DNA from: a virus
DNA length: 45,568 nucleotides
Virus record (IMG/VR): IMGVR_UViG_3300020057_000056
Span: 1 to 45,568 of that record
Direction: 5' to 3' (one strand)
Shown: positions 3,788 to 41,960 of the stretch, in pieces
Position numbering within the stretch: the first letter of the stretch is position 1
Layout of the letters: the number at the start of each line of letters is the position of its first letter
Notes under the pieces: model-generated
The model's input: only the letters and a program-made list of their open reading frames with translations
Database searches by the model: none
Told to the model about the DNA's origin: nothing
Made by a program: the position numbers and the translations under genes

Positions 3788-3803
3788 CTAGAAAGGACCT
3801 CAA

Positions 3804-5729: not shown

Positions 5730-5732
5730 GAT

Positions 5733-6050: not shown

Positions 6051-6053
6051 AAA

Positions 6054-8492
6054 ATGGCAGCTCCTAAAGTCTTGATAAGAGAAGTTCAGTCAGGAACTAA
6101 TACAATTGTTGGTGTAGGCACCTCAGTTGCTGGTTTTGTTGGCTTAGCAGACAAAGGCCCTATCGGCCAAGCTCAACTTGTAAGTTCTTTCGAACAATAC
6201 ACACAAGAATATGGCGATTTTAGATCGGATTCATATTTGTCTCACGCTGTCTTAGGATTTTTCCAGAACGGCGGACAATCATGCTTCGTAGTTAGAACTG
6301 GACACTACAGCAATTTAGCCAATGGTATTTTAGAAGTTACTGAAAATGCCAAGTCGACTGTAACTATAGTTGATAGAAATGAATCGGCTTCGATTCTCCA
6401 AGTAGACGCTCTTAGCGAAGGAGATCATGGAAATGATCTAGCCATTAAAATTAGCAGAGCTTCAAATGAGTCTTCTTCTTTCAATAAAGTATTTGGTTCT
6501 GATGCGGGAGTATACACAGACAATACATCAGCTGCTAGATCTGCCGCCCTTTTCAAGGCTATGGTAGATGATGGTGGATCTTTCTCAGATTCTACTGTTG
6601 CCGCTGCTACTGCAGGTGGCGGAACTCCATTTAATGCATTAAGCGCCGCTCCTGCTATTGATGATGCTTTATATATTGGAGCTAAAGAACGAACTTTTGA
6701 TTCCATGTATTTCGGAATCTCTACGCCGGCTACGACTGCGGGTGTTGCCCAATTAGAGTATTGGAACGGATCTTCGTGGCAATCACTAAGCCCTACCACT
6801 GACCAGATCACTTCTGGTGGAATCACTTTTGGAGCCGCAGTTAATGCTAATGCTTTAGTACAATTTAGTGTTCCAGCTGACTGGAAACGAGTTTCCATAA
6901 ATAGTTCATTAGGTTACTGGGTTCGATACAAAGTTACGACAGTGTTCAGCGGCACTGCCCCACAAATTAACAGAGTAAGCTTAAGTGAAGACAAACCTTT
7001 TGGTGCCTTCACAGCTGTAGCAAGTAATGTAACTGAAACAGCCGCTGCCACAGCAGTCAATGATGTTATGTATCTTGGCTCTAATTCACCTTTCAAGTAT
7101 GCCGTACTTTCGTTACTAACCCCTGGAGATTCTTCAGGAATAGTAGCTTGGGAATACTGGAATGGTCAAAGTTGGTCTGCACTACAAAACATCACACAGA
7201 CTGTTGCCAATGCACAACACTTACGAGCATCTGGCACTGTTGGATGGGATTCCCCAAGTGATTGGAGAAAGACCTCTATCAACAGTAGCTCAAGCTTTTA
7301 TTTTGTTAGAGCACGAATTACCACAGACTATTCATCGGCTTATCCTTCATTAGACCACGCCTTACCCGCCTCAGACTTGTTTAAACTTTCAGTCTTGCTA
7401 TCAGGTACTGAAGTTGAGTCTTTTGATAACGTGCAAGTAGAAGACAGCTCCCTAGCTAGCTACGCAGAGTCTATTAATTCAGCACATGTAGCTGTTTCAG
7501 TATTGGCGAATGCAACTACTGCTCCTAACAATCGACCTATCGAAGTTGTTTCAGCAAGTCTCTCTGGAGGCCTATACGTAACATCTTCCGTTAATGACAA
7601 TGATTATGTTGGAAGTGAAGCTTCACTATCTGGCCTAGAAGCCCTACCAGATGAAGTTAACGTTGTAGTTATCCCTGGGATCAGAACTGAAGCTGTATAC
7701 AACGGTATGTTAAGTCACTGTGAGCGACAAGCAGATCGAATGGCTATACTTGAAGCCCCTGGAGATAGTAGCACAGATACACCACTTGAATTAGTTGAAC
7801 TAGTTCGTGATGAAGCTGCTTTAAATTCCAGCTATGGAGCTATTTATGACTATTGGATTTTAGTTCCTGATCCTGTAACAGGCATCAGAATCGCAGTCCC
7901 ACCTTCTGGGCATCTAGCCGGTATGTATGCCAGAGTAGACGAAGCTCGCGGTGTGTGGAAAGCTCCTGCTGGCGTCCAGGATGGACGACTTTTTGGAGCC
8001 CTTGGAGTAGTTCGAAAGACTTCTCAAGCTGAACGAGATTTGATGTATGATAACAAGATCAACCCGATCCGGGACCAAGCTGGTTTCGGAGTTTACGTTG
8101 ATGGATCAATTACACTAGCTCCTTTAGGAACGGATTTTGATCGAGTATCGGTCCGAAGATTGTTCTTATTTGTTGAAGAAAGTCTACAAGACGCTTCTGA
8201 AGTTTATAAGCATGAGCCTATTGACAGCAAGCTATTTGATAAAATGCGATCAAGCTATTCTTCCTTTTTACTAGACCTTTGGAGAAAAGGTGGACTAAGA
8301 GGAACTAAAGCTTCTGATGCATTCTTTGTAATAGTGAATGATAGCAATAACCCACCTTCATCTGTTAATAAACGACAAGTGAATGTAAAGATTGGTCTTG
8401 CAGCTCTACAACCAGCGGAGATGATCGTCCTTGAGTTCACGGTCGACAAGAGAGCCTTAAACGCCGAACTCGCATCACAAGGTTTAGTATAA
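6054..8492 (+). CDS. Contractile tail sheath protein with two inserted domains
   Basis: The 812-residue subunit forms the sheath that contracts to drive the tube into the host. The N-terminus (PKVLIREVQSGTNTI, then GTSVAGFVGLADKGP) and the C-terminal quarter (YVDGSITLAPLGTDFDRVSVRRLFLFVEESL, split here for description as the conserved RRL-FLFVEESL helix) are typical of sheath proteins. The C-terminal part supplies the strands that link neighbouring subunits. The middle (about residues 195-440) holds two tandem units, each with an EYWNG-SW motif (residues about 235 and 367), which probably project from the sheath surface. It is much longer than simple sheaths (about 400 residues in P2). A strong ribosome site (GGAGG) precedes it. 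Confidence 0.93.
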   Translation: MAAPKVLIREVQSGTNTIVGVGTSVAGFVGLADKGPIGQAQLVSSFEQYTQEYGDFRSDSYLSHAVLGFFQNGGQSCFVVRTGHYSNLANGILEVTENAKSTVTIVDRNESASILQVDALSEGDHGNDLAIKISRASNESSSFNKVFGSDAGVYTDNTSAARSAALFKAMVDDGGSFSDSTVAAATAGGGTPFNALSAAPAIDDALYIGAKERTFDSMYFGISTPATTAGVAQLEYWNGSSWQSLSPTTDQITSGGITFGAAVNANALVQFSVPADWKRVSINSSLGYWVRYKVTTVFSGTAPQINRVSLSEDKPFGAFTAVASNVTETAAATAVNDVMYLGSNSPFKYAVLSLLTPGDSSGIVAWEYWNGQSWSALQNITQTVANAQHLRASGTVGWDSPSDWRKTSINSSSSFYFVRARITTDYSSAYPSLDHALPASDLFKLSVLLSGTEVESFDNVQVEDSSLASYAESINSAHVAVSVLANATTAPNNRPIEVVSASLSGGLYVTSSVNDNDYVGSEASLSGLEALPDEVNVVVIPGIRTEAVYNGMLSHCERQADRMAILEAPGDSSTDTPLELVELVRDEAALNSSYGAIYDYWILVPDPVTGIRIAVPPSGHLAGMYARVDEARGVWKAPAGVQDGRLFGALGVVRKTSQAERDLMYDNKINPIRDQAGFGVYVDGSITLAPLGTDFDRVSVRRLFLFVEESLQDASEVYKHEPIDSKLFDKMRSSYSSFLLDLWRKGGLRGTKASDAFFVIVNDSNNPPSSVNKRQVNVKIGLAALQPAEMIVLEFTVDKRALNAELASQGLV

Positions 8493-10082: not shown

Positions 10083-10835
10083 ATGGAACCTATTTCACAA
10101 TTATTTCAGTACCGAGAAAAGGAAGTTGAACTTCCCAATGGGTACTTAGATTCTGACGGAGTACTGCATAGAGCAGTTAACGTAAGAGAACTTTCTGGAG
10201 AAGAAGAAGATATCCTTTTAGATGAAACTGAGTCAAAGAACGGCACCACAATCACTAATATTCTAAATAGAGTGTGTAAGCTTAAAGACAAACCCACACA
10301 GAAATTTGTCTCCGATTTATTAATGGTGGATCAACTGTATTTACTAGTACAGACCCGGTCATTGACATATGGAGATACATTCAAGTTTGATCAACTTTGT
10401 TCAAACCAAGCGTGCCAAAAAATTTCCAGAGTTAATCTAGAACTTAGTTCCTTGAAATTCCAAGGATCAAGTAACCCTAAATCACTTGAAGAGACTATAG
10501 AGTTACCAAATACCGGTGTTTCTGTCAGATTCAAGAAGAATCAAGGAAAAGACCAAGGAAGTCTACAAAAGATTCAAAAGGGTGCCAAAGACAAAGTCTC
10601 GCAGTTACTCATGTACAGAATTATTGAACTGACTAAAGAAGGTGTTGAATACCCTAAAATGGTAGTCAAATCTTTGCCGGGGGAAGACCGAAAATTTCTC
10701 CGTGAATTTATGAGAAAATCTGAGGGGGATGCCGAAACAATGATAGACTTTAGTTGCTATCATTGCAGGCATGAAATGAAAATACAACTGCCGTTTGACC
10801 AGAATTTTTTTTGCTTAACGGAGGACGTAGACTAA
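10083..10835 (+). CDS. Baseplate / tape-measure-associated protein, T4 gp26-like
   Basis: A 250-residue protein of the T4_baseplate (gp26-like, PF12322) type. It has ELPNGYLDSDGVLHR, then VRELSGEEEDILL near residues 33-46, a DQLYLLVQTRSLTYGD segment (about 83-98) and two Cys pairs, C106/C111 and C225/C228, likely a zinc ribbon. In contractile systems this protein sits between tube and tape measure genes and helps assemble the hub or chaperones the tape measure. Near its end, codons 242-243 (TTT TTT) fall in a run of eight T, and a -1 slip there leads into the next ORF, giving a fusion of about 322 residues. Confidence 0.8.
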   Translation: MEPISQLFQYREKEVELPNGYLDSDGVLHRAVNVRELSGEEEDILLDETESKNGTTITNILNRVCKLKDKPTQKFVSDLLMVDQLYLLVQTRSLTYGDTFKFDQLCSNQACQKISRVNLELSSLKFQGSSNPKSLEETIELPNTGVSVRFKKNQGKDQGSLQKIQKGAKDKVSQLLMYRIIELTKEGVEYPKMVVKSLPGEDRKFLREFMRKSEGDAETMIDFSCYHCRHEMKIQLPFDQNFFCLTEDVD

Positions 10836-10839
10836 CGTC
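10805..10839 (+). other. Predicted programmed -1 ribosomal frameshift site
   Basis: The heptamer T TTT TTT (10805-10811) is in the correct phase for -1 slippage: zero-frame codons TTT (10806-10808) and TTT (10809-10811) re-pair one base back. Both frames are open only between 10799 and 10835, and the T-run (10805-10812) lies in that interval. Twelve bases downstream is a small 5-bp hairpin (GACGT 10824-10828 with ACGTC 10835-10839), a possible but weak stimulator. Location just upstream of the tape measure gene matches the conserved frameshift of lambda G/GT and P2 E/E'. Confidence 0.75.
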
Positions 10840-11050
10840 ATCCGATTACGGGAAAGATACATACTCCCTTACACTAGATATGGGAGCTACGACTTTGGAC
10901 AAGGCAGCTTTCGACATTTCTTACCACATGCACACTCCCATAAGTGATGTCTATAAAATGCCCGTAAAAAAGCGGATGTTGTTCCAGGAATTTTTAAAAG
11001 AGCAAAAGACTTTTGAGAACCAGGAACTAAACAAAAGCCGTAAAAAATAG
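10811..11050 (+). CDS. Frameshift extension ORF before tape measure (DUF6760-like)
   Basis: This ORF encodes 79 codons in the -1 frame relative to the gp26-like gene, ending just before the tape measure gene. The start given is a TTG with no Shine-Dalgarno, and no in-frame start follows the GGAGG at 10820-10824 at useful distance. I therefore infer it is translated mainly as the tail of a fusion, join(10083..10811, 10811..11050). The segment LDKAAFDISYHMHTPISDVYKMP then KRMLFQEFLKE resembles the small helical YHxHxP proteins that follow gp26-like genes in injection-system clusters (from memory, DUF6760) and P2 gpE'. It probably acts as a tape-measure assembly chaperone. Confidence 0.75.
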   Translation: MLNGGRRLTSSDYGKDTYSLTLDMGATTLDKAAFDISYHMHTPISDVYKMPVKKRMLFQEFLKEQKTFENQELNKSRKK

Positions 11051-11064
11051 CAGGTGTATCAAAA

Positions 11065-12771
11065 GTGGAAAATCTAGAGCTTGGTATAAATATTACTATT
11101 AATGGCAACGTAAACCAAGCTGCCAACCAAGCCGCTCGCGCACTGGGGAATGCCTCCAATGCTGTAGACAGGCTGAAAAGATCCTCTGAGGGATCTCTGG
11201 GTAGTTTATTAGCCATACAATCATCACTATTCGTCATAACTAAATTTGCAACTACTTTCGCCTCTTTGGGTTTTGGAATCGTAGGAGGGATAGTCGGTGC
11301 CTTCACTGCTGGTGTAAAATCTGCAGGAGAGTTTGAGAAATCTCTGGCCTTCTTAAGGGTTGCTACAGGAAAATCGTTCACTTTTGCAAAACAAGAAGTT
11401 AATCGCCTTGCTACATCTACGGACCTATCTACACAATCAATTGTTGATATGTCCAGAAGATTACTTGGAGTAGGTCTAACTGCCGACCAAGTTTTCAAAA
11501 AAGTAAAGGGCGCACAGAATTCAGGGATTGTAAATATTGCTGCGGCTATTTCCTCCCTATCCTCAATTGAACGTCCTAGAGCACTGGCCAGTATTGCGAA
11601 CATATTTCAGGACTTAAGTTCTGTTAATAGACTATTAAATACAACTGTGCCACAATCCATTAAAGATGCATTTTCCTCCGCAGCGAATGATGCTGAAAAA
11701 TTTAATATAGTACTAGGATTTTTAGATCAAAGATTTGGCGGCATCTTCGGTCCAGAGGGCCTAGGTGGAAGTTTCGTGTTTATTGCCACTAGAGCTTTCC
11801 AAAACTTACAGGATTTAATAAACAGAGCATTCTTACCTGCTCTAGAGAGTCTTACCCCTGTATTCCAGACTTTAGGAGCAGAGCTCACAAAGCTTAAAGA
11901 CGACGAAAAATTTATTGCAGCTTTAAACAAAACATTTGTCAGTCTTGCAAAAATAGCCAGTTCCGTTTTAAAGATCGTAGTACAAATCGGACTTGGCCTA
12001 GTAAAATTTATTGCAGCATTCCCAAATTTTACTACTGGAATTGTACTGACTACATTATTTGGGGGAGCACTTTTAGGTGTATTCGGCTTAATAATTTTCG
12101 GGGCGTCATCAGTAGCACTCCTCGGCCTATCTGTAGGAAAACTGACTACTGGACTGGCTGCTGCAAGCTCAGCAACGGGCCTTTTCGCATTAAATTTAAA
12201 AATACTACAGGCAGCCACTAATCCAGCCAGTATTGCACTACTTGGACTTGCACTGGGCGGAATCTTAGGGCTTTTACTATCAATAAATGAACTCCCCCAC
12301 TTTATGGATAGATTTGGACAAGGGGCTAAAATGCTAGGGGTTACTCTAGGGACAATTATAAACTCTTTAATCCTCATTGTTTCTTTAATTTCAGGAATTG
12401 TAGGGGCCGTAGCGGGATTTGCTCTGGGCGGTATCCCAGGAGCTATTGCAGGAGCTCTCGGCGGATTCGGCCTAACATTTGCTGGATTAAGTGGCCTAAC
12501 AGACTCTGGAGAACAACTTCAGAAGAATACCCTGCCTGTACAGCAAGAAACTTCTTCAATGACAAGAGTTTCTGGAGAAAGTTCAATGAACAGTAGTCTA
12601 CTAGATTTAGTAGATTCTTTTCAAGAAATGCGCCAGGATCTTAATAAACTAGGCAACAGACCTATTGACATAAATAATAACGTCATGCTTGATGGTAAGG
12701 TTGTCTCAAACACAGTTAACCAAATAAATAAGACAGAGACTGAACGACTCGGATTTATCCTACCGCCCTAA
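11065..12771 (+). CDS. Tail tape measure protein
   Basis: A 568-residue protein with GTG start. The N-terminus is polar and helical with Ala/Asn-rich repeats (NQAANQAARALGNASNAVDRL). It is followed by a membrane-like stretch (about 55-90, Gly/Phe/Ala rich), a helical centre and several long hydrophobic, glycine-rich segments (about 310-365, 385-410, 430-480). This matches tape measure proteins, which fix tail length, fill the tube lumen and may form a pore in the host membrane. At 568 residues it predicts a short tail if the usual rule of about 1.5 angstrom per residue holds. Position after the frameshifted chaperone pair supports the call. Confidence 0.9.
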   Translation: MENLELGINITINGNVNQAANQAARALGNASNAVDRLKRSSEGSLGSLLAIQSSLFVITKFATTFASLGFGIVGGIVGAFTAGVKSAGEFEKSLAFLRVATGKSFTFAKQEVNRLATSTDLSTQSIVDMSRRLLGVGLTADQVFKKVKGAQNSGIVNIAAAISSLSSIERPRALASIANIFQDLSSVNRLLNTTVPQSIKDAFSSAANDAEKFNIVLGFLDQRFGGIFGPEGLGGSFVFIATRAFQNLQDLINRAFLPALESLTPVFQTLGAELTKLKDDEKFIAALNKTFVSLAKIASSVLKIVVQIGLGLVKFIAAFPNFTTGIVLTTLFGGALLGVFGLIIFGASSVALLGLSVGKLTTGLAAASSATGLFALNLKILQAATNPASIALLGLALGGILGLLLSINELPHFMDRFGQGAKMLGVTLGTIINSLILIVSLISGIVGAVAGFALGGIPGAIAGALGGFGLTFAGLSGLTDSGEQLQKNTLPVQQETSSMTRVSGESSMNSSLLDLVDSFQEMRQDLNKLGNRPIDINNNVMLDGKVVSNTVNQINKTETERLGFILPP

Positions 12772-12779
12772 GAGGTAAT

Positions 12780-13445
12780 ATGGCATACGATTTTACAAAA
12801 TATCCTGCAAACAAAGTGACGATTCAACAAGTACCCTTGTCAGATATAACTCAAAAAGACCCGAGTGCTTTATCAATTGTTTGCTCTATTAACCCAGAGT
12901 CTATCAGTGAGTCAGTTGCGTTGAACATAGATAAAGTTCAACTGATAAACAACAACTTGCCAAGATCTATTGTATCTGGAACAAAGGGCCGGACTGTGAC
13001 TTTTACTCTACTGCTTCATGGGATGGCAAAGCCAGGTACAGCAGGGTTAAACTTTTCTGGTGGAAACTCAAGCACTTTCATATCTGCTGCAACATCTTTG
13101 GTGCCGTTTTCAGCCAATATAATAAGAGGCATACAGACTATCCAGGATGTAATAGGTAGTATATCGAGTAAACCAGAGTACCCAACTCCACAGCAAAGTA
13201 CAAACTACCTAAACGTAGACAAACAAATTTCAGACCTGTTTAAAATGCAAGTTCCTAAAGATGGAAATACTACACATTCACCAGTTAAGTTACTTGGATA
13301 CCCTGTGTATGAAGGGATGAATTTTTACATAGAAAATATACAAGTAAACAAAAAATTCTGGGACCAACAACTCAGAACAATGTTTGCCGAAGTTCAAATT
13401 ACCTTATTTCAAGTAGGCAAGAACAATCAATTCGGGAGATTTTAA
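12780..13445 (+). CDS. CIS-tube / LysM-type baseplate hub protein (Pvc7-like)
   Basis: A 221-residue beta-rich protein. The early segment ALSIVCSINPESISESVAL resembles the F-x-x-NPE-x(3,4)-S pattern that opens CIS_tube / Afp7-Pvc7 proteins, which pack around the central hub and attach it to the tube. A Gly/Ser-rich middle (about 75-145) follows, then a C-terminal LGYPVYEGMNFYIENIQVN strand set. It lies between tape measure and a small LysM-like gene and overlaps that gene by one base. There are no catalytic residues. The family call is moderately secure. Confidence 0.6.
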   Translation: MAYDFTKYPANKVTIQQVPLSDITQKDPSALSIVCSINPESISESVALNIDKVQLINNNLPRSIVSGTKGRTVTFTLLLHGMAKPGTAGLNFSGGNSSTFISAATSLVPFSANIIRGIQTIQDVIGSISSKPEYPTPQQSTNYLNVDKQISDLFKMQVPKDGNTTHSPVKLLGYPVYEGMNFYIENIQVNKKFWDQQLRTMFAEVQITLFQVGKNNQFGRF

Positions 13446-13774: not shown

Positions 13775-15291
13775 TGAGACCATATTTAGAATTATTAATT
13801 GGAAAAAATGCGAGTACTAATTCTAAAAATATTAGAAAGTCACATATCTTTGGGGGCTCTGGTGGATCAATCTTAGATACCCGTCTGGTAAATTTTCGTT
13901 TCGAAGAAAGCGATGGAGATGATATCGACAAAAATCGTAAGGGTAGAAAAGATATAGTATCCTTTACCTTCATCGATCAAGTCCCCGAGCTTCAAGGCTT
14001 TTTAAGTGATAGCAAGGAAATTGAAGTGGATGACCTCTTGTATATAAGGTATGGATGGATCATTGGCGACAAGGGCCAAAAAGTCCAACCAGACTTAGTG
14101 GAAAGAGAATTCAGAATTGTTAAGATAGAGCCCAAGTTTAATTCATCAATGAGTACCTTGACTGTTACAGCGTATGATCGGTCTGCTGATTTAGACAGAT
14201 TCATAACATCCATACTGTTAGACACTAAACTATCTGATGGAAGAGGAGCTGGTGCTGCTGAGAAAACACCTTTTAAAGCCGCACTCATGGAAATTGCCCG
14301 CATTGGGGGCCTTGAGTTAGATGAATCGGGAAGAGTTATTTTCGAAGACGCGCAAGGTAATACAATTGTTGAACTAGGCGGAAACTTAGCTATTCCCAGA
14401 GAGTCTTTAGCCTCATACCTCAAATATCTTGCCGAAGAAACGGGCAGTGTTTTTTATGTCGAAAACCGACGCTTATTTTTCGGAGCTCGGAAGATGCCTT
14501 CAAGAGATAAAATTGCCGCTACAATATTAAGAGGTTCTGATAAAACCGTATTTGATGTAAAGTCTAAGGAAGATTTAAGAGTGGTCCCGTTGTTAGATAT
14601 GTCGATTCAGAGAAAACTTGCAGTAGAAGGTGTTGCCTATAAGGTCCCTACACAAGATAAAAGAACGGGAGTCGTAGATGTCAGCCAAGTTTTAGCTAGT
14701 GAGTTGAGCCAGATTTTACTTATATCACTAGATATCGATTCAGGACAGCCGACTGTCCCTTTTAGACCGGCTCCTCTGTCCACAGAATACTCAAAACAAT
14801 TGAACATACCAATTGGAAAAGCAGAGGAAGTTTTAAATGATGCTATCATAAGTGAACGAGTTGAGACTTTCTTTAGCAAACCCTCATTTTTCACACAGCA
14901 AGAAGTATCTACAATTCTACAACAGCCTTCACCTTCAGCAATGGAAAAAGCAGGCCAGGCTATCTTGAGACAAAAACTTACTGATTTGACGCTGAAAGAG
15001 ACCACTGCAACTGTAAAGATTTTCGGTAACCCATTGATACGACATGGTAATTTAGTTAACATAGCCGGTAATATGCCCAAAAACTACAGTGGCACTTGGT
15101 ATGTACAGTCAGTGGAACACGATATTACCCCGAATAATTACTTTACTACGTTAAAATTAATGGCTGCGTCACCAGAAAACCCATTCTTTAGATCAGACAT
15201 TAAGAAATTTCAACAGAAAATTAACAAGACACAACAGAAAAAGCCTAATAAACTAGGCCGTATAATACCTGATGTGGCGAAAGGCCGGTAA
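13774..15291 (+). CDS. Baseplate hub protein (P2 gpD / T4 gp27-like)
   Basis: A 505-residue protein matching the gpD / gp27 hub, equal to the N-terminal half of VgrG. Seen are an N-terminal beta domain (SFTFIDQVPELQGFLSD, VDDLLYIRYGW), FRIVKIEPKFNSSMSTLTVTAYDRSADLDR, the middle SLASYLKYLAEETGSVFYVENRRLFFG module, and a C-terminal barrel ending GNPLIRHGNLVNIAG / GTWYVQSVEHDITPNNYFTTLKL, both typical of this family. A trimer of this protein joins the six-fold tube to the three-fold spike encoded next. The spike gene begins three bases downstream, so hub and spike are separate genes here rather than a single VgrG. Confidence 0.9.
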   Translation: MRPYLELLIGKNASTNSKNIRKSHIFGGSGGSILDTRLVNFRFEESDGDDIDKNRKGRKDIVSFTFIDQVPELQGFLSDSKEIEVDDLLYIRYGWIIGDKGQKVQPDLVEREFRIVKIEPKFNSSMSTLTVTAYDRSADLDRFITSILLDTKLSDGRGAGAAEKTPFKAALMEIARIGGLELDESGRVIFEDAQGNTIVELGGNLAIPRESLASYLKYLAEETGSVFYVENRRLFFGARKMPSRDKIAATILRGSDKTVFDVKSKEDLRVVPLLDMSIQRKLAVEGVAYKVPTQDKRTGVVDVSQVLASELSQILLISLDIDSGQPTVPFRPAPLSTEYSKQLNIPIGKAEEVLNDAIISERVETFFSKPSFFTQQEVSTILQQPSPSAMEKAGQAILRQKLTDLTLKETTATVKIFGNPLIRHGNLVNIAGNMPKNYSGTWYVQSVEHDITPNNYFTTLKLMAASPENPFFRSDIKKFQQKINKTQQKKPNKLGRIIPDVAKGR

Positions 15292-15293
15292 CC

Positions 15294-16442
15294 ATGGCTG
15301 GGATAAGACAAGAAGGCAGAAGATATTTATTCGGGCTCTACAAGGGACTAGTGGCTGTTAATACAGACCCAGAGTCCAGAGGCAGAATTAAAGTAAAGAT
15401 TCCAACTATTTGGAACCAACAAGTACACCCTACTTGGGCAGAACCTTCCTTTCCTAGTAACGAAGTATTTACTGTACCAACAGTAGGGTCTCAAGTATGG
15501 ATTGCATTTGAGGAAGGAGATCCCAATTCTCCTATCTATATAGGATCGTTCTTGAAGTCTTCTGAGCCCCATGTGTCCGCTAAGAATGCCTCCCCTCTAA
15601 ATAGAAGCATTAAAACTGCCAATAATTTAGAAGTAAGCCTCGATGATTCCATCAATGAAATACACATTCAAATCAAGGGAACTAATACCACTGCCAATGT
15701 TCTAGTACCAGGCCCTGCTACACTAGATGCTAAAGGCGAAGCATTTATGAAACTAGAAGAGGGTGGTTTGAAGCTAAATGCATACCAGCTCACTGTAGGG
15801 GTTCACCCGAAAACCGGAGCCACTATTAAGGATGTATGGACAATTGGATATGGCCACACCGGGCCAGATGTATACGAAGGACAGGTTATTGACGAAACCC
15901 AAGCAGATGATTTGTTTGCTGTAGATAAGACAGACTTCGAGACATCTCTATCAGCTCTGGTGAAAGTACCGTTAAACCAGAACCAGTTCAATGCTCTAAT
16001 GTCTCTGGTATATAATATCGGAATTCCAAACTTTGCGGAAAGTAACCAACTTAAGTTACTTAATGCGGGTAAGTATACCCAGTCTGCCGCTGAATTCGCT
16101 AGCTGGAGGCTAGCACGCGGGGTAGTTTCAAGGGGGTTAGTGGCTCGGAGAGCCCGAGAACTGGCTCTTTGGAACAGCCCAAGTGCCGCCTCAGAGTCCT
16201 CAGACCCCCCCATTAAGATAATCTTACGTAAGGATGGCAACAAAATCATCCTAGATGCAGAAGCCATAGAACTAGGTGAAGGCGCAACAGAGCCAATCGT
16301 TTTAGGGGATAGCTTCAAGAGCCTTTTTAATTCCCATGTTCATAATTATATTCCAGGAAGTCCGGGCCCTACAACCACTACATCACCTCCGACATCATCC
16401 ATGGGGTCAGGGCAATTGAGCGATATCAGCAAAGTAAAGTAG
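15294..16442 (+). CDS. Baseplate spike with embedded lysozyme domain (gp5/gpV-like)
   Basis: A 382-residue central spike. Residues about 10-100 form an OB-fold domain (LFGLYKGLVAVNTDPESRGRIKVKIP then VGSQVWIAFEEGDPNSPIYIGSF), as in gpV and gp5. Residues about 150-290 form a GH24 lysozyme-like domain with Glu 155/156 and the hallmark TIGYGHTG. The remainder is a beta-strand stem with KIILRKDGNKIILDAE and the tip motif NSHVHNYIPGSPGP, whose HxH resembles the metal-binding tip of gpV-type spikes. The lysozyme probably opens peptidoglycan at entry, as in T4 gp5. The canonical catalytic Asp appears replaced (Tyr-Gln-Leu) and an insertion of about 12 residues precedes TIGYGHT, so activity is uncertain. 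Confidence 0.9.
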   Translation: MAGIRQEGRRYLFGLYKGLVAVNTDPESRGRIKVKIPTIWNQQVHPTWAEPSFPSNEVFTVPTVGSQVWIAFEEGDPNSPIYIGSFLKSSEPHVSAKNASPLNRSIKTANNLEVSLDDSINEIHIQIKGTNTTANVLVPGPATLDAKGEAFMKLEEGGLKLNAYQLTVGVHPKTGATIKDVWTIGYGHTGPDVYEGQVIDETQADDLFAVDKTDFETSLSALVKVPLNQNQFNALMSLVYNIGIPNFAESNQLKLLNAGKYTQSAAEFASWRLARGVVSRGLVARRARELALWNSPSAASESSDPPIKIILRKDGNKIILDAEAIELGEGATEPIVLGDSFKSLFNSHVHNYIPGSPGPTTTTSPPTSSMGSGQLSDISKVK

Positions 16443-34015: not shown

Positions 34016-34042
34016 ACACATCCACCTCGTATATTGTATGTT

Positions 34043-35539
34043 ATGAGTGAGATACCTCTTTGGCTTCAGTCTCCACCGCCCAATCTGAAGCTCGACCAAT
34101 TTAAGCTTCCACTGTATCCATTCCAAAATTCTGGGGCAATCTTCTTAGCACAAAACCCCAACAGCCTTTTACGGGACTCTGTGGGACTTGGGAAATGCCC
34201 ACAATCTCTTGCAGCGTTTAATGCTCTTGTACGGAAACAACCCACCTTAAAATGTTTAATCGTAGTCCCGGCTTCTCTCATCCACCAGTGGAAAGACGAG
34301 ATTGAGAAATTCACTACTTTCAAATCTATTATCTATCGAGGTCAGAAAAAGACTAGAGATAATATAATGAAAACTTTTATAAGAGATCCAGAGATCCAGT
34401 GCCTTATAACTAACTATGAAATTGTCAGAAGGGACGAGGATAATTTCTTGGATCTACACCGTGAGTTTCCGTACATCATTATATTCGACGAGGCCCAGAA
34501 AATAAAGAACCACAGATCTAAAACAGCACAGGCAATTAAGCTGCTATCAATGCGCTCTAGTGGAAATAAACTTCTTACAGCTACACCTGTATTCAATAAC
34601 GTCCTAGATCTTTACGGACTATTTAAAATAATTAACCCGGCAGTTTTTGGGACGTATGTAAACTTCATGAATAATTTTACTAATTATTATATGATGGATA
34701 TGGGTAGTTACCAAATTCCTGTATACCAAGGCCCTAAAAATATCCCGCTACTTAAAGATAAAATCAAGGGCTATGTATTTGGCCGAGAAAAAAAAGACGT
34801 GTATAATCAACTACCTCCACTCACTTTCTCAGATAGATTTGTTGCCTTACCAGAACATCATCAAGAGATTTATGATGCACTTGAGCAAGAGAAGCTAATT
34901 GTGGATGATGTTGAAACTAAGGATATCGACAGGCTGGCAGCTCTCACTCACATGCAGAGTTGTGCTGATGCTGTAGAGCATTTAAACACTACTGTAGCTC
35001 CTTCACACCCTAAAATAGACGAGTGTATCCAGATCATTGAAGAAGAGTTTGATGACGACAAAATCATTGTGTACTCTAAGTTTACCCGGACAATAGACAT
35101 TCTAAATGCAGAACTAAAGAAAAAGAATATCGCCCACTTTAACATTGACGGCAGAATAGACGCAGCCCAAAGAGATGCGAATAAGAAAGCGTGGGAAAAT
35201 CATCCTGGAAAAGCCATCCTAGTTATCAGCTCTGCTGGTGGGGCTGGTTTAAATCTGCAAGCTGCTGGGACTATCATCTTTTTAAACCGACCCTGGTCTT
35301 ACGGAGAGCTATTACAAGTTTGCGGACGTATCCATAGAATCGGGACTAAGCATGAGAAATTGCTGATCATTAACTTATACTGTGAAGGCACCATTGACGA
35401 AGACATAAGAGATACGTTAAAGTCAAAGGAAGCCGTGTTTAATCGCCTATTCATTCAGGGAGGAGAAAATCTTGCAGAAAAAGACTTCAGCAGAGAAATC
35501 TGGAACAAAGCCTATCAAAGAGCTACTGCAAAAATTTAA
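34043..35539 (+). CDS. SNF2-type superfamily 2 helicase / translocase
   Basis: A 498-residue SF2 enzyme (ATG at 34043; a TTG nine bases earlier is possible). Motifs seen: Q-like LPLYPFQNSGAIFL, motif I DSVGLGKC (about 45-52), motif II FDEAQ (about 149), motif III TATPVFNN, and in the second RecA fold VYSKFTRTIDIL, SAGGAGLNLQAA and QVCGRIHRIG. GRIHRIG and DEAQ are SNF2-type. Motif I ends GKC instead of GKT/GKS. Phage SNF2 proteins may remodel protein-DNA complexes, aid replication or recombination, or counter host defence. No nuclease or DNA-binding extension is fused. Its end overlaps the next small gene by 68 bases. Confidence 0.87.
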   Translation: MSEIPLWLQSPPPNLKLDQFKLPLYPFQNSGAIFLAQNPNSLLRDSVGLGKCPQSLAAFNALVRKQPTLKCLIVVPASLIHQWKDEIEKFTTFKSIIYRGQKKTRDNIMKTFIRDPEIQCLITNYEIVRRDEDNFLDLHREFPYIIIFDEAQKIKNHRSKTAQAIKLLSMRSSGNKLLTATPVFNNVLDLYGLFKIINPAVFGTYVNFMNNFTNYYMMDMGSYQIPVYQGPKNIPLLKDKIKGYVFGREKKDVYNQLPPLTFSDRFVALPEHHQEIYDALEQEKLIVDDVETKDIDRLAALTHMQSCADAVEHLNTTVAPSHPKIDECIQIIEEEFDDDKIIVYSKFTRTIDILNAELKKKNIAHFNIDGRIDAAQRDANKKAWENHPGKAILVISSAGGAGLNLQAAGTIIFLNRPWSYGELLQVCGRIHRIGTKHEKLLIINLYCEGTIDEDIRDTLKSKEAVFNRLFIQGGENLAEKDFSREIWNKAYQRATAKI

Positions 35540-35726
35540 TGTTGTGATTTATAAATCACCTACAGGACTTCAGTATATAAAAGAAGATCATGGAACAAAC
35601 CAACACCCTCCAGTAGTTTTGCTAAAAAGTATTTGGGAAGCCCTAGGCAAACACAAAGATTCTAAAGCAGCTTACAAGGCCTACCTAGCAGACAAGAAGG
35701 CATCAACAAAAGGAGAAACAAAGTGA
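35472..35726 (+). CDS. Small protein ending in a single HEAT-like unit
   Basis: An 84-residue protein in a different frame overlapping the helicase end. I support the TTG start at 35472 because GGGAGGAG lies six bases upstream. The first half is basic and polar. The end, WEALGKHKDSKAAYKAYLADKK then KGET, is the same as the end of the next gene's product (ALGNYKDSKAAHKGFNADEKAFKKGET), and the stop overlaps the next start (GTGA). It looks like the ancestral or partner copy from which the HEAT-repeat gene's end was duplicated. Function unknown. Confidence 0.6.
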   Translation: MQKKTSAEKSGTKPIKELLQKFNVVIYKSPTGLQYIKEDHGTNQHPPVVLLKSIWEALGKHKDSKAAYKAYLADKKASTKGETK

Positions 35727-35748
35727 ACAAAGAATCGGAGATAAAGAC
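35641..35748 (+). repeat. Left copy of 108-bp gene-junction duplication
   Basis: This 108-bp segment spans the end of the small gene at 35472 and the start of the HEAT-repeat gene. It aligns without gaps to 36948-37055, which spans the end of the HEAT gene and the start of the 37030 gene, with 90 identical positions of 108 by hand count. Both copies contain the same type of stop/start overlap. Confidence 0.85.
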
Positions 35749-37033
35749 AGCTGCTCTCATTAAAGCTCTCAAAGATAAAGATCGGGGTGTTCGCTTGTCT
35801 GCTGCCAAAGCCCTAAGCAATCACACAGACTCTAAAGCTACCAACGCTCTCATTAAAGCTCTCGAAGATAAAAATCTACATGTTCGCTGGTATGCTGCCG
35901 TAGCTCTAGGCAAACACAAAGATTCTAAAGCTACCGATGCCCTCATTAAAGCTCTCAAAGGTAAAAATCTACATGTTCGCTGGTATGCTACCATAGCCCT
36001 AGGCAAACACAAAGATTCTAAAGCAGCTACCGATGCTCTCATTGAAGCTTTCGAAGATCAAGATTCGGGTGTTCGCATGTCTGCTGCCAGAGCCCTAGGC
36101 AATCACAAAGATTCTAAAGCAGCTACTGATGCTCTCATTAAAGCTCTCCGAGATGAAGATTGGTATGTTCGCAAGTCTGCTACCATAGCCCTAGGCACTC
36201 GCACAGATTCTAAAGCCGCTACCTATGCTCTCATTAAAGCTCTCGAAGATCAAGATTCGGGTGTTCGCTGGTATGCTACCATAGCCCTAGGCAAACACAA
36301 AGATTCTAAAGCCGCTATCGATGCTCTCCTTAAAGCTCTCAAAGATGAAGATCGGAGTGTTCGCTTGTATGCTGCCAAAGCTCTAGGCAAACACAAAGAT
36401 TCTAAAGTTACCGATGCTCTCATTAAAGCTCTCGAAGATAAAGATTGGTATGTTCGCAAGTCTGCTGCCATAGCCCTAGGCAATCACAAAGATTCTAAAG
36501 CGGCTACCGATGCTCTCATTAAAGCTCTCGAAGATAAAGATTGGTATGTTCGCAAGTCTGCTATCATAGCCCTAGGCACTCGCACAGATTCTAAAGCCGC
36601 TACCGATGCTCTCCTTAAAGCTTTCGAAGATAAAGATTGGCATGTTCGCTGGTCTGCTGCCTTAGCCCTAGGCAATCACAAAGATTCTAAAGCTACCGAT
36701 GCTCTCCTTAAAGCTCTCAAAGATGAAAATCCGGGTGTTCGCTGGTATGCTATCGACGCCCTAGGCAATCACAAAGATTCTAAAGCCGCTACCGATGCTC
36801 TCCTTAAAGCTCTCGAAGATAAAGATCCGAATGTTCGCAGGTATGCTGCCATAGCCATAGGCAAACACAAAGATTTTAAAGCTACCGATGCTCTCCTTAA
36901 AGCTCTCAAAGATAAAGATTGGTATGTTCGCAGGTATGCTGCCAGAGCCCTAGGCAATTACAAAGATTCTAAAGCAGCACACAAGGGGTTCAATGCAGAC
37001 GAGAAGGCTTTTAAAAAAGGAGAAACAGAATGA
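35723..37033 (+). CDS. HEAT-repeat protein of 13 near-identical units
   Basis: A 436-residue protein built almost wholly of 31-32-residue HEAT-like (PBS-lyase type) helix pairs, pattern DALIKALEDKD-xx-VR-xx-A-xx-ALG-x-xx-DSKAA, repeated 13 times. The framework is nearly invariant, and change is concentrated at four residues flanking the VR pair (for example WY..KS, SG..WY, LH..WY, RG..LS, PN..RY). In HEAT superhelices such positions lie on the inner binding surface. A short N-terminus (MNKESEIKT) and basic tail cap it. GTG start overlaps the previous stop, and its stop overlaps the next start. Likely a protein- or nucleic-acid-binding scaffold; the partner is unknown. Confidence 0.88.
   Translation: MNKESEIKTAALIKALKDKDRGVRLSAAKALSNHTDSKATNALIKALEDKNLHVRWYAAVALGKHKDSKATDALIKALKGKNLHVRWYATIALGKHKDSKAATDALIEAFEDQDSGVRMSAARALGNHKDSKAATDALIKALRDEDWYVRKSATIALGTRTDSKAATYALIKALEDQDSGVRWYATIALGKHKDSKAAIDALLKALKDEDRSVRLYAAKALGKHKDSKVTDALIKALEDKDWYVRKSAAIALGNHKDSKAATDALIKALEDKDWYVRKSAIIALGTRTDSKAATDALLKAFEDKDWHVRWSAALALGNHKDSKATDALLKALKDENPGVRWYAIDALGNHKDSKAATDALLKALEDKDPNVRRYAAIAIGKHKDFKATDALLKALKDKDWYVRRYAARALGNYKDSKAAHKGFNADEKAFKKGETE
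35750..36979 (+). repeat. Tandem array of 13 HEAT-coding units (93 or 96 bp each)
   Basis: Units of 93 or 96 bp differ by one optional Ala codon (SKA versus SKAA). Each contains the unchanged heptamer TGTTCGC. The two codons on each side vary while their third bases stay mostly fixed. Some unit types recur at non-adjacent positions, as expected if units are copied by recombination. Confidence 0.9.
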
Positions 37034-37055
37034 CCAAAGAATCGGAGATAAAGAC
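36948..37055 (+). repeat. Right copy of 108-bp gene-junction duplication
   Basis: The counterpart of 35641-35748. It covers the last HEAT half-unit, the basic tail, the ATGA stop/start overlap and the first nine codons of the 37030 gene, whose start (TKESEIKT after Met) copies that of the HEAT gene (NKESEIKT). Confidence 0.85.
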
Positions 37056-37179
37056 CGCCTACCTATCAGCACGTCATGCTTACGCTGGGGCTCGAAATAA
37101 CTACTATGTAGCACGTGATGCTTACACATTAGCAAGTGATGGTCTAGACCACTACGGCGAGTTAAACAGAAGAAAATAA
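37030..37179 (+). CDS. 49-residue protein sharing the HEAT gene's N-terminus
   Basis: A short gene with ATGA overlap to the HEAT gene and TAATG overlap to the next. GGAGAAACAGA upstream gives a ribosome site. The start, MTKESEIKTA, matches the HEAT protein's MNKESEIKTA, then diverges into a Tyr/Ala/Arg-rich helix (YLSARHAYAGARNNYYVARDAY) with a loose repeat of the type ARxAY. Function unknown. It may be the original gene whose 5' end was copied to make the HEAT gene. Confidence 0.6.
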   Translation: MTKESEIKTAYLSARHAYAGARNNYYVARDAYTLASDGLDHYGELNRRK

Positions 37180-37751
37180 TGAGCGAAAATAAAAAACTAC
37201 ACAGTTATGAAGGCGAGAAAGCCACAAGGACCGGAGCTTACTACGAAAAGCTCCTGAAGAAGTTCTGTGGCCCAGACTATCATAACTTACTTAGACCACA
37301 GAAGAGATCAGAAGTCCGACAGTTTCTTAGGTTTAGTAAGACTTCACTAGTCTACGGCATTCCCCAGGAAGTCAATTGCTTTCGAACCGAAGCTTTCAAT
37401 ATTATCGTACACAACCATTTAACTGCCGTTAGAACTAACGACACAGCCCTAGTCAAATTAAACTTCCATGAACTAGGAGAGTTACCAGACACCACTATTG
37501 AAAACAGCATGGAACTTTTAACCCCAGATTTCCTTTGGCTAGATATCTGTACCACGAAAAATTCCTTCATCCCACATCAAATTATGTTGATAGTTAACAT
37601 GCGAATGGAACAAGGCAAGCGTACAGTGATCTACTCTCCAGCAGCGGATGACCGGGCTTGGCAGCGTCTATATGAATCAGACGTTTTCATTAAGTTCCTG
37701 AATAGGTTTAAAGAAAAGTCACAGGCTCTCGAAGTTAAGGGGTACGAATGA
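37179..37751 (+). CDS. Replication-cluster protein before helicase, unknown function
   Basis: A 190-residue protein I do not recognise. The N-terminal 60 residues are basic and helical. The centre has a hydrophobic strand followed by Asp (DFLWLDICTT), then HQIMLIVNMRMEQGKRTVIYSPAADDRAW, a strand pattern reminiscent of a degenerate RecA-like or loader ATPase Walker B and sensor region, but no Walker A is present. It overlaps the DnaB-like helicase gene by four bases (ATGA), so a helicase loader or partner is plausible by position. That is inference only. Confidence 0.55.
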   Translation: MSENKKLHSYEGEKATRTGAYYEKLLKKFCGPDYHNLLRPQKRSEVRQFLRFSKTSLVYGIPQEVNCFRTEAFNIIVHNHLTAVRTNDTALVKLNFHELGELPDTTIENSMELLTPDFLWLDICTTKNSFIPHQIMLIVNMRMEQGKRTVIYSPAADDRAWQRLYESDVFIKFLNRFKEKSQALEVKGYE

Positions 37752-39094
37752 GCGAAGCAACACAATATTCCTATAACGTTCTTTCAGGCTTATTCTCTGA
37801 TAGAGTAATTAAACTGAAAGCGCAGATCAAGCAGAGCTACTTCACAGACCCAGCTCAAATGCAGCTATACACTTTCTGCACTGAATTTTATGCGAGTACT
37901 AAAACTGTACCAACAGTTCAAGTTGTAGAAGATGCATTTAAAGATAAACTGTGGGACATCCAACAAGAAGTAAAGACAATTCTCGGCAAGCTCAATGTAC
38001 TAATTGATGACGCCCTTTTCGAACACTCACTACAGAATTTCATACAAGACCATAAGATTTCACTCCTGGTCAGTAACTCAAAAAAGGTCGCAAATGTACA
38101 GTCCATTGGCTTCGACAAAGTGCTAGATGATACTCGTAAAGTCCTGAACACAATTACCGGCATTGAGAATTCAAAGCTCAATATCTACAACTCTGATATT
38201 AAAGATGATGTTGACTCCTTCTTAACGAGAACGTTCGATAAGACTATTGATACTCCGGGCATCCCTGTTAGAAATCCCATCATCAACAGAATTACTGGTG
38301 GTATGCAGCCGAAGCGCCTGTGGGTTATAGCTGGAGCTTCGGGTGAATGTAAGTCTACCTATCTTAAAAATCTAGCGTACGATTCTTTAATCGCTGGCGC
38401 TAATACTTTCTACTGTACTGTGGAAGAAGACCAAGATCAGGTTCTTAGAGTACTAACTACTATTCACGTCTTTAGAAAGTATAGTGTTATCCTAGAATCT
38501 GCCAAATATAAAACCTACACTGCTGAGGAAGAAAAACTATTCAGACAAGCCCAAGAAGACTTCCTTAGCTTGAGCAGCAACATAACTATTTTTGAATTGC
38601 CGCAACGCTATAGCTACTCTAATTTTGAGAGCATGTTAACGCAACAGAACTCAATCAAAAAGATCGACGCAGTATTTCTAGATTACTTACTGCTCCTAAA
38701 GCCGGACAGTAAAAGATCTCAGCAGCATGAAGAGAGTGAACAGCTCTACAATGAAGCTAGACAGCTGGCTAATGGATTCGACGGGGGCCGTGGTATATTT
38801 GTTTGTACCGCCCACCAAGTTAATCGAGAAGGCTGGAAGAAGGCTAAGAAACGTGGTCATTATGTAGCCGAGGATTTAGCCAAGACAGTAGCAGCACAAC
38901 AAGCCCCAGATTTAGTTATTGCTAATTATCTTGATCCTGAGCTTAGATCTCAAAATGAACTCAGACAAAACCTGCTAAAGAACAGAGGTGGAGAATTCTA
39001 CAATGAACCTTGGATCTGTCCCATTCAGTTAGAGTGTGGAATTATCAACCCTCCTCTTGATATGGATGACATTCCAAAAGACCTTAAGCTATGA
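37748..39094 (+). CDS. DnaB-like replicative helicase
   Basis: A 448-residue RecA-type hexameric helicase. The N-terminal 130 residues are a helical DnaB-N-like domain. A linker (GIPVRNPIINRITGGMQPKRLWVIAG) leads to the ATPase core: Walker A G-ASGECKS (196-203), a catalytic Glu in TVEEDQDQ, Walker B AVFLDYLLLL and a DnaB-type sensor segment FVCTAHQVNREG. The second Gly of Walker A is Cys201, which is unusual. The core closely follows phage helicases of T4 gp41/DnaB type, with no primase fused. It should unwind the fork with the polymerase and SSB encoded downstream. Three tiny genes follow in ATGA overlap. Confidence 0.88.
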   Translation: MSEATQYSYNVLSGLFSDRVIKLKAQIKQSYFTDPAQMQLYTFCTEFYASTKTVPTVQVVEDAFKDKLWDIQQEVKTILGKLNVLIDDALFEHSLQNFIQDHKISLLVSNSKKVANVQSIGFDKVLDDTRKVLNTITGIENSKLNIYNSDIKDDVDSFLTRTFDKTIDTPGIPVRNPIINRITGGMQPKRLWVIAGASGECKSTYLKNLAYDSLIAGANTFYCTVEEDQDQVLRVLTTIHVFRKYSVILESAKYKTYTAEEEKLFRQAQEDFLSLSSNITIFELPQRYSYSNFESMLTQQNSIKKIDAVFLDYLLLLKPDSKRSQQHEESEQLYNEARQLANGFDGGRGIFVCTAHQVNREGWKKAKKRGHYVAEDLAKTVAAQQAPDLVIANYLDPELRSQNELRQNLLKNRGGEFYNEPWICPIQLECGIINPPLDMDDIPKDLKL

Positions 39095-39356: not shown

Positions 39357-39487
39357 TGAGCCTAGAAAGAGTACTGATTAGCTTTGGCCTAGAGTGCCGA
39401 GTCAACTATTTCTGGTTTGGAATACATCGAGTCACCGCACCAGTCTACACAATAATCTGGGATATGTCTTTGAGGCCAACCAAATGA
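39356..39487 (+). CDS. Microprotein 3 of 3 (43 residues)
   Basis: It begins MSLERVLISFGLECRV, then FWFGIHR, echoing the YFGVVH of microprotein 1, and ends in a less related tail. It ends in an ATGA overlap with the zinc-protein gene. A GTG one codon earlier is an alternative start. With its two neighbours it forms an uninterrupted, translationally coupled series of three short relatives between helicase and zinc protein. Confidence 0.5.
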   Translation: MSLERVLISFGLECRVNYFWFGIHRVTAPVYTIIWDMSLRPTK

Positions 39488-39930
39488 ATGGGCTTAAGTT
39501 TACACTACAAGTATTAAAAGACTACGGCTACGAGATCCCGCAGATCAATAGAAACATCTGCTGCCTTTTCCATGAAGAAACTCGTCCATCAGCCAGACTC
39601 TACGAAACAGGAAGCTACCACTGCTGGTCAGGTAAGTGTGGCGCACACTTCTCCGATGGCCTAGGCGCTATCATGCAGATTGAGGGCTGTCACTACAAAG
39701 ACGCACTGACAATTGCTGGGAATAGATACGGATTTCAAGTACCTGAAAAAGACATGGTATCTATGAAAGAGTTTTATTCACTAGAAGAGGCAATAGTAAA
39801 AAAGGTTATCGAACAAAAACCTATGCTATTCTTGTCAGTCTACAAAACTTTAGATACAATCATATCAGAACGTGATTTAGATAAAATGAAAAAGCTTTAT
39901 ACAAAACTATCTCAAGGAGAAATTAAGTGA
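39484..39930 (+). CDS. Stand-alone CHC2 zinc-binding primase-type protein
   Basis: A 149-residue protein. I choose the ATG at 39484 (ATGA overlap; GAGG upstream) rather than an in-frame upstream start at 39394 that would cover microprotein 3. It carries a DnaG-type CHC2 zinc domain: CCLFHEETRPSARLYE then YHCWSGKCGAHFSDGLGAIM, where C-x2-H and C-x4-C supply the metal ligands, followed by YKDALTIAGNRYGF. That domain selects primase start sites on DNA, yet no TOPRIM catalytic domain follows. The final 60 residues are helical. It may act in trans with a primase outside the window. The stop overlaps the polymerase start (GTGA). Confidence 0.78.
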   Translation: MNGLKFTLQVLKDYGYEIPQINRNICCLFHEETRPSARLYETGSYHCWSGKCGAHFSDGLGAIMQIEGCHYKDALTIAGNRYGFQVPEKDMVSMKEFYSLEEAIVKKVIEQKPMLFLSVYKTLDTIISERDLDKMKKLYTKLSQGEIK

Positions 39931-41960
39931 GTAAAGAGTGGATGAATTCATGCTCCTTTACTTTAGTAGACTCTAAAGAGAAGCTCACATACCTAAAGAC
40001 TCAAATTGAGTCAGCTCAATTCGTAGGATTGGATCTAGAAACTACTGGACTTGACTGGCTATCAGACTGGATTGTTGGCGTAGCTATTTCTACCGGAGAA
40101 GATCAAGGCTACTATATTCCTATCGACCACAAAGATTCTAACAATCTCAGCATTGCTTTGGTAAAACAAGAGTTGCATGAGATCCTTCTAAAGAAGAAAG
40201 TTATCTACTTCAATGCCGCATTCGACCGAAGTATGCTTATCAAAGCAGATATGGATGTTCCTGGAGAAGATGCAATGCTTCTTATCTACCACAAAAATAC
40301 AGAGAAGTATAAGGCAGTCGGTTTAAAGAAAGCCTCTAAAGAGTTCTTGAACCGGGAAATGATCGAGTTCAAAGACCTATTCACAGACGAAGAGAAGAAG
40401 CGGGTAGACCGAAAAGTTCCGAGCCTAAAGTTGAATAAAAAACCAGCCACAGATTGCCTAGCCTATGCCTGTAGCGATGCGATTAATACTTGGTTACTTT
40501 ATAAGAAAGAGCGACATAGACTCCCGCCGAGAATGGAAAGTGTTTATGAGATCGACAATAAATTTATAGACTATATCTTAGCCATTCAAGATACAGGCTT
40601 CGATGTAGACCTCAAGTATCTTTCAGAATTACGTAAGCGTATTCAAGGTAAGATATCGATGCTGCAAGATCGAATGAATGCCGCAGCTGGGTTTGAAGTG
40701 AACCCCAATGCCTCCGCATCTATTTGGAAAGCACTGACCTCCTTCGGTGTAGAGCCCACTAAGTTCACGGAGAAATCCAATAAGCCAGCCTTTGACGCAG
40801 ATACTCTAGATGGAGTTGATCACCCGTTTGCTAAAGATGTTAGTGATTACAAGATCTTAACTAAGACCCTTTCAACCTACATAGACGCTCTAGAACAAGG
40901 TATCCATCCTAAAACAGGACGCTGCCACTCCCTATACCCCTATACTTTTACCTCTACAGGCCGCCTCTCCTCTACTGCTATGAAGGATACTAACATGAAG
41001 AAGTTAGGTATCAATGCACAGCAGGTAGCTAAGATGATCATATCGGACTCAAAACATGAGTTCTTTCAAGAGTTTAAGTCTGATTCTATCAGAAAAGCAA
41101 TCATCCCTCCTAAGGGTTATATCCTAGGCTCCTTAGACTGGTCAGCTGTAGAGCTCCGTATTGCAGCACACTTCTCCCAAGAACCCATCTGGCTAGAAGG
41201 GTTTAGGAAGAATGAAGACTTACATCAGAAGCTAGCAGATACTATTAACAATAAGCTAGGTCTAAACATAGATAGAACTAAAGCCAAGAATGCCCAGTTT
41301 AATATGTTATACGCTTTCTACTGGTCCACCTTTGCTGAGAACCAAGGAATCTCTATGGAAGAGGCTGAGATGCTCTATAAGGCCTTCTTCAGCACAGTGG
41401 TATACTATGACCGCTGGAGAGAGAGCTATAAGAAGCAAGCCTATACCCAGGGCTATTCAGAGACCATGTATGGACGTAGGCGTGTAGTGGGTAGCTATGC
41501 TGAAGCCAGAGATCTACAGAACTATCTCAAAAACTTAGATAAAAAGTATGAGAACTATAGCCGTGAGGAAAAGAGTCTGTACCGACAGTACCGTATGAAA
41601 CGGTCTCAGGGAGACCGGGAAGCTATAAACCATAGGGTCCAAGGGACTTGCCTAGACTTTATGAAGATAGCTGGGATTAAGATTTGCAAGGAAATGGCCC
41701 GGGAAGGGCTTTGGAGAACAGATGTAATCCCAATGATGGTCGTCCATGATGAAGCCAACTTTGCAGTAAAGGGCGAGATATTGACTATTGACCGGTCCGG
41801 GACGGACCCTTTAGTTATAGTATCTCCTGAAGCCACGGCCAACCTAGCCAAGATCAAGAAGATCATGGAGAACGTAGCCCCCGCTAACTTTTCTGTACCC
41901 CTTGTTTGTGAAGTAGAAGCCGGTTTAAACTGGAAAGAACTCTACAAACTTAAGGTTTAA
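39927..41960 (+). CDS. DNA polymerase, family A, with 3'-5' proofreading domain
   Basis: A 677-residue replicative polymerase. The 3'-5' exonuclease shows exo I GLDLETT (D36, E38), exo II FNAAFDR and exo III YACSDA. The polymerase has TSTGRLSS, motif A DWSAVELRI (D404), motif B (O helix) RTKAKNAQFNMLY with Phe at the residue 762-equivalent position, and motif C VVHDEA (H607-D608-E609). No 5'-3' exonuclease domain is present. All catalytic residues are intact, so it should be fully active and is presumably the phage replicase. GTG start in the previous stop. A hairpin spans its stop codon. Confidence 0.95.
   Translation: MSKEWMNSCSFTLVDSKEKLTYLKTQIESAQFVGLDLETTGLDWLSDWIVGVAISTGEDQGYYIPIDHKDSNNLSIALVKQELHEILLKKKVIYFNAAFDRSMLIKADMDVPGEDAMLLIYHKNTEKYKAVGLKKASKEFLNREMIEFKDLFTDEEKKRVDRKVPSLKLNKKPATDCLAYACSDAINTWLLYKKERHRLPPRMESVYEIDNKFIDYILAIQDTGFDVDLKYLSELRKRIQGKISMLQDRMNAAAGFEVNPNASASIWKALTSFGVEPTKFTEKSNKPAFDADTLDGVDHPFAKDVSDYKILTKTLSTYIDALEQGIHPKTGRCHSLYPYTFTSTGRLSSTAMKDTNMKKLGINAQQVAKMIISDSKHEFFQEFKSDSIRKAIIPPKGYILGSLDWSAVELRIAAHFSQEPIWLEGFRKNEDLHQKLADTINNKLGLNIDRTKAKNAQFNMLYAFYWSTFAENQGISMEEAEMLYKAFFSTVVYYDRWRESYKKQAYTQGYSETMYGRRRVVGSYAEARDLQNYLKNLDKKYENYSREEKSLYRQYRMKRSQGDREAINHRVQGTCLDFMKIAGIKICKEMAREGLWRTDVIPMMVVHDEANFAVKGEILTIDRSGTDPLVIVSPEATANLAKIKKIMENVAPANFSVPLVCEVEAGLNWKELYKLKV

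Follow-up and report, generated by a model that had tools for sequence, protein, structure and literature searches.

Natural alphaRep-like repeats, and repeat arrays with hypervariable sites in NLR-type receptors, are already known. In alphaRep binders the randomised positions of the unit are 18, 19, 22, 23, 26 and 30, with Val-Arg between both pairs; natural repeats of this kind commonly have proline at position 18 and none at positions 22–30, and the interface of an alphaRep complex, which is rich in Trp and Tyr, is formed by the concave faces that bear the variable residues (PMC3754942). The WD40 sensor arrays of fungal HNWD proteins consist of repeats that are almost identical apart from a few hypervariable sites, on which diversifying selection acts (PMC12222747), and the TPR and ANK arrays of NLR-type receptors are likewise built of near-identical repeats whose hypervariable sites, under diversifying selection, lie on the interaction face (PMC4986451). 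For the PRDM9 array, a mean dN/dS of 2.7 has been reported (Persi 2016, PMC5120217).

The window studied here, the whole stretch of 45,568 nucleotides of viral DNA, contains a plus-strand gene (35723..37033; 436 aa, GTG start) whose product is nearly all HEAT repeat with a short tail (Pfam HEAT_2, 3.8e-93). The GTG overlaps the upstream stop codon (GTGA), the gene's own stop overlaps the next ATG (ATGA) and a GGAG lies 7 nt 5' of the start, indicating that the gene belongs to a translationally coupled operon. Its surroundings are those of a replication module: upstream lies a gene for an SNF2-type helicase (34034..35539, plus strand), and downstream a DnaB-like helicase (37748..39094, plus strand) is followed by a primase zinc finger (39394-39930) and a family A DNA polymerase (39927-41960). 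Terminase, sheath and baseplate genes are present elsewhere in the window, which identifies a contractile-tailed phage (myophage). A role in the tail or in receptor binding was considered for the array and rejected, since its gene belongs to the replication operon, a long way from the tail genes.

The initial annotation had described an array of 13 HEAT units at 35750-36979. The measured span is 35747-36979 on the plus strand, and the 13 tandem units, of 93 or 96 nt (31 or 32 aa), start at 35747, 35840, 35933, 36029, 36125, 36221, 36317, 36410, 36506, 36602, 36695, 36791 and 36884; the longer units have a single additional alanine (DSKAATDA rather than DSKATDA). As that annotation stated, the heptamer TGTTCGC, consisting of the last base of codon 14 followed by GTT CGC, is unchanged in 13/13 units, and the codons it listed on either side are all correct. 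The third bases that it reported as constant are so at codons 14 (T), 17 (G) and 18 (T), and, beyond those it named, at codon 20 (C); codon 13 has a single exception, CTA, found in two adjacent units. Variation at codons 20 (GCC/ACC/ATC), 21 (K/V/I/R/L/D) and 25 (N/K/T) had been overlooked. The hypervariable codons of each unit are 13, 14, 17, 18, 21 and 25, which flank the invariant GTT CGC; their span, 35783..36958 (plus strand), opens with codon 13 of the first unit and closes with codon 25 of the last. At these six positions 12 of the 13 hexapeptides are distinct, and Trp and Tyr together make up 27% of residues, compared with 4.0% in the phage's other genes and 2/333 elsewhere in the units, giving the variable positions the appearance expected of a binding surface. 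Since the longest exact repeat within the array is 58 nt, short reads are expected to resolve the array; this, together with the same array in a second record, led us to reject an assembly artefact.

Profile searches matched the HEAT and PBS-lyase-like HEAT repeat families across the array, PF13646 with 306 bits (curated cut-off 27.7) and PF03130 with 203 bits (curated cut-off 20.9). The phycobilin lyases CpcE and CpcF and the protein NblB were rejected on their scores of 187, 110 and 133 bits, against NCBIfam cut-offs of 330, 220 and 300. The AF2 model shows paired helices throughout (mean pLDDT 91.8); the best PDB matches by both sequence and fold are alphaReps, with Foldseek returning alphaReps and PP2A-A. 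Together, the Pfam match and the modelled solenoid agree with the earlier identification of a HEAT array, and the protein is predicted, with near certainty, to be an alpha-solenoid. The resemblance to alphaReps that had been drawn previously extends one-to-one to all six randomised positions: codons 13, 14, 17, 18, 21 and 25 correspond to alphaRep positions 18, 19, 22, 23, 26 and 30 with a shift of five, so that the sites to be tested can be named independently of the phage array. Proline occurs among the variable codons at codon 13 only. In the AF2 model helix 2 begins at codon 13 (e.g. helix 147-158 in unit 5), and the i, i+4, i+8 spacing of the six variable sites agrees with the register of this helix. 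Position equivalence, helix register and the known alphaRep complexes would therefore place the variable face on the concave side of the solenoid.

With these six alphaRep positions set in advance as test sites, Nei-Gojobori estimates of pN/pS were 0.404/0.151 at the six positions and 0.099/0.078 in the remaining codons. Separate IQ-TREE codon fits for each partition were unstable, the frequencies from six codons absorbing the third-base effect, and a joint codon model with phage-wide frequencies and a single silent rate common to all codons was used instead. Under this model, omega was 7.8 at the six codons and 1.5 elsewhere, with 2dlnL of 44.0 against omega_hv = 1 and of 36.7 against equal omega, in keeping with the excess of amino-acid-changing differences that the initial annotation had noticed. 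The signal was robust to the choice of tree (star, 22.3; other-codon tree, 15.8; six-codon tree, 7.2), and 0/100 random 6-codon sets attained the observed statistic. The units have a common ancestry, so the raw n=13 exaggerates their independence. Null data sets simulated with omega_hv = 1 (25 replicates per case, some fully recombining, with each codon on its own shuffled tree) gave LRT maxima of 12.0 and 11.4 compared with the observed 44, and under equal omega the equality statistic was at most 7.3. Silent change was absent at codons 14, 17, 18 and 20; a mutational hot spot, which would elevate silent change at the same codons, was rejected, silent change being low at most of them. We conclude that positive selection very probably acts at the six alphaRep positions. 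Variation is indeed concentrated around the core, but to describe it as confined there was slightly too strong, as other positions of the unit also vary (omega ~1.5), with changes there that are not predominantly silent. Since omega exceeds 1 outside the six positions as well, part of the excess may reflect relaxed constraint, and relaxation may account for some of the change in the units.

The only close viral relative found was a 64.8-kb record, 99.99% identical across the shared stretch, in which the array is letter-identical; it provides the same array in a second assembly and is uninformative on live variation. Named phages yielded no match to the HEAT-array protein at 1e-5, and an alphaRep-like consensus was matched at 1e-3 by only 6/50,697 phage records. 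Within the limits of the consensus patterns used, scans found two weak loci in 2.9 million viral contigs and >500 loci in genomes. Among relatives sought by polymerase/helicase synteny, the sibling contig alone was close; the others, at most 28% identical in the polymerase, were excluded from comparison. Four other phage HEAT proteins (L103, L104, L111 and L112) contain at most two divergent motif-matching units and no homogenised array.

In a survey of 23 cellular or plasmid HEAT arrays of at least six units, omega was higher at the six positions in 22, significantly so (LRT >3.84) in 18. The value for the window ranks second, behind that of the cyanobacterial NACHT-HEAT protein L044 (8.8 vs 0.63). 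The same signature was seen in cellular arrays from unrelated phyla, and identity between the phage array and the cellular arrays compared is ~40% for each, with none standing out. The signature is thus less exceptional than the initial annotation implied, being common to many natural HEAT arrays. The plasmid array L020 of Streptomyces anulatus (1091-4894) provides a contrast case: nine of its units are identical across the 14 codons compared (PGVRHTALAALGWW), as in a very recent expansion without diversification.

Pairs of cellular relatives allowed the variable face to be compared with the rest of the protein. L046 and L047 carry arrays within orthologous HEAT-metallophosphoesterase proteins (Pfam NACHT was matched at the threshold used in L047 only, the same P-loop region being present in both); their N- and C-terminal parts are 83% and 85% identical, and their arrays, of 17 and 19 units, have one variable hexapeptide in common (13 and 15 distinct). 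L037 and L050 have N-terminal parts that are 88% identical and arrays of 7 and 22 units with zero hexapeptides in common. In cellular relatives, then, the variable face outpaces the rest of the protein. The comparison of unit number and variable residues among relatives that the initial annotation had proposed thus shows differences between cellular orthologues; for the phage, the single sibling has an identical array. All of these cyanobacterial proteins, together with L044 (NACHT-HEAT, some with a metallophosphoesterase), have homogenised arrays with hypervariable codons that mostly end in T or G.

The HEAT-array gene is bracketed by two 113-bp direct repeats on the plus strand that are 83% identical. 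The left copy (35639..35751) covers the junction between an 84-aa ORF (35472..35726, plus strand) and the HEAT gene, taking in the end of the former, a ribosome-binding site and the beginning of the latter; the right copy (36946..37058) covers, in the same way, the end of the HEAT gene, a ribosome-binding site and the beginning of a small ORF of 49 aa that comes next (37030..37179, plus strand). Since each copy spans an ORF end, a ribosome-binding site and the next start, recombination between them would delete the HEAT gene and leave its neighbours intact. The C-terminal part of the 84-aa ORF (ALGKHKDSKAA...KGETK) matches the closing residues of the final HEAT unit together with the tail, and the start of the 49-aa ORF (MTKESEIKTA) matches that of the HEAT-array gene (NKESEIKTA). 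The shared KGET(K/E) tails are partly due to the ribosome-binding site in both repeats. From this arrangement, the likely history is a tandem duplication over an ORF junction followed by expansion of HEAT units between the copies. Within the array, unit similarity is independent of distance (rho 0.05) and unit 6 looks as if pieced together from units 4 and 3. Such mosaics suggest recombination between units, for which a formal test was not significant (PHI p = 0.18).

In the sibling record (L105), an SbcC/SMC-like ORF at 5720-6826 contains a direct in-frame duplication of ~23 residues (LTPLPSRPENPSKLIILSEYCQ), so that tandem duplication in frame is again indicated for this phage. The same record encodes adjacent ORFs at 10498-13278 that by eye resemble a vWA-type protein and a MoxR-like AAA ATPase and, past the end of the window (14709-15410), a putative lipoprotein with a collagen-like GVQGDQ repeat.

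A rigid solenoid with 78 selected surface positions is probably best read as an intracellular binder, and on balance we favour the following account, which takes up the diversified binding protein proposed in the initial annotation. The gene product would be an intracellular, stand-alone, alphaRep-like HEAT solenoid whose constant residues maintain the fold. In each unit, the six variable residues, with many Trp and Tyr among them, lie on one face of the second helix and would contribute to an extended concave surface for binding. The array would have been built as a 96-nt unit was duplicated in frame and exchanged again and again, with point mutations at the six codons retained by diversifying selection for binding. 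Its place in the replication operon suggests that, early or midway through infection, it binds a partner inside the host cell, most likely a protein. Since diversifying selection at particular positions is a usual mark of conflict (PMC12222747; PMC4986451), that partner would more probably be a host defence factor or a protein of a rival element than a replication partner of the phage; such a conflict-related target is plausible, if a little short of an even chance. That the array is aimed at variable host targets, as proposed earlier, is an inference, and any particular target a guess. It is rather doubtful that the locus is a natural evolvable binder cassette: a stand-alone HEAT array, excisable through the 113-bp repeats, that has diversified against changing proteins of host defence or of rival phages and that descends from, or imitates, the sensor arrays of bacterial NLR-like receptors.

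A fixed extended partner within the phage's own replication machinery is a real alternative to a conflict target. The array would then serve as a scaffold whose variable face fits that partner, one unit per patch, and such a unit-specific fit would likewise raise omega between units; the position of the translationally coupled gene between the SNF2 and DnaB helicase genes accords with this. We nevertheless consider a scaffold unlikely, because a conserved partner predicts broader conservation among phages and no relative of the array was found beside replication genes in the other phages searched. The possibility that selection for binding is dispensable, and that surface positions of a young, recently expanded array simply drift while the core is held, is unlikely as well. 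Young repeats are generally under relaxed selection (Persi et al., PMC5120217), omega outside the six positions is ~1.5 rather than below 1, and a minimum-change tally of the whole unit by hand gave ~44 amino-acid-changing to 10 silent changes, near the neutral ratio. Drift, however, cannot yield an omega_hv of ~8 against the array's own silent rate, as the gap between simulated (<=12.0) and observed (44) LRT values indicates, and it is not expected to raise Trp and Tyr to 27%.

A molecular decoy is very unlikely. On this view the phage would have stolen the sensor array of a bacterial NLR-like (NACHT-HEAT) receptor and would use it to titrate that receptor's ligand or to jam the receptor itself. 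Arrays bearing the signature do include the C-terminal arrays of NACHT proteins, and the phage form is without an NTPase domain, but no cellular array stands out at ~40% identity, and stand-alone HEAT arrays occur in cells too. Adenine-directed mutagenic reverse transcription by a diversity-generating retroelement would account for variation of the first and second codon bases with the third fixed (NNT/NNG-like), but is extremely improbable given a wrong base pattern (most A's elsewhere in the unit are invariant, and the first two bases of codon 13 are never A), the lack of an RVT_1 match in the window or the 64.8-kb sibling (controls were positive; the records may be incomplete) and the recurrence of the signature in cellular arrays across unrelated phyla.

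If the favoured reading of a selected binder is correct, phages, like their hosts, deploy homogenised arrays with a selected variable face as fast-evolving binders, and this HEAT array offers a specific candidate for an inhibitor encoded by a phage, one with a target that could be fished directly. The analysis also supplies a general test, in which omega at preset alphaRep positions is measured relative to the array's own silent rate, and this test, applied to cellular HEAT arrays, revealed a diversifying signature in many of them, among these the arrays of cyanobacterial NLR-like receptors.

As far as these searches show, a stand-alone, homogenised and diversified HEAT array in a phage is new, and its position in a replication operon between 113-bp direct repeats is an unusual combination. 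The closest comparison is with alphaRep binders and their natural source repeats (Guellouz 2013, PMC3754942), which share with the phage array a two-helix unit of ~31 residues, the invariant Val-Arg, the same six variable positions and proline only at the first of these. The phage array differs from them in being natural, phage-encoded and homogeneous at the DNA level over 13 units, and its turn reads NHKDSKA(A) instead of IGDERA. The cyanobacterial NACHT-HEAT proteins (L044, L047 and L050, and L046 by orthology) have the same kind of unit and the same variable positions, with codons there that mostly end in T or G as in the phage; their arrays, however, form the C-terminal part of receptor-like proteins of 1,100-1,450 aa, whereas the phage array, ~40% identical, stands alone. 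As in NLR-type repeats, a few repeat sites of the phage array are under diversifying selection. Unit number varies between relatives in the HNWD WD40 and TPR/ANK arrays, as it does in the cellular HEAT orthologues. NLR sensors combine WD40, TPR or ANK repeats with NACHT or NB-ARC, whereas the repeats here are of HEAT type in a phage genome, and a profile search of the 436-aa protein returned HEAT-type and other repeat-type matches only, with no NACHT/NB-ARC or effector domain. The PRDM9 zinc-finger array is, like that of the phage, a recent tandem array with selected contact residues, but it consists of DNA-binding zinc fingers in animals. If the favoured reading holds, the phage array would be a natural counterpart of both alphaRep libraries and the sensor repeats of fungal NLRs.
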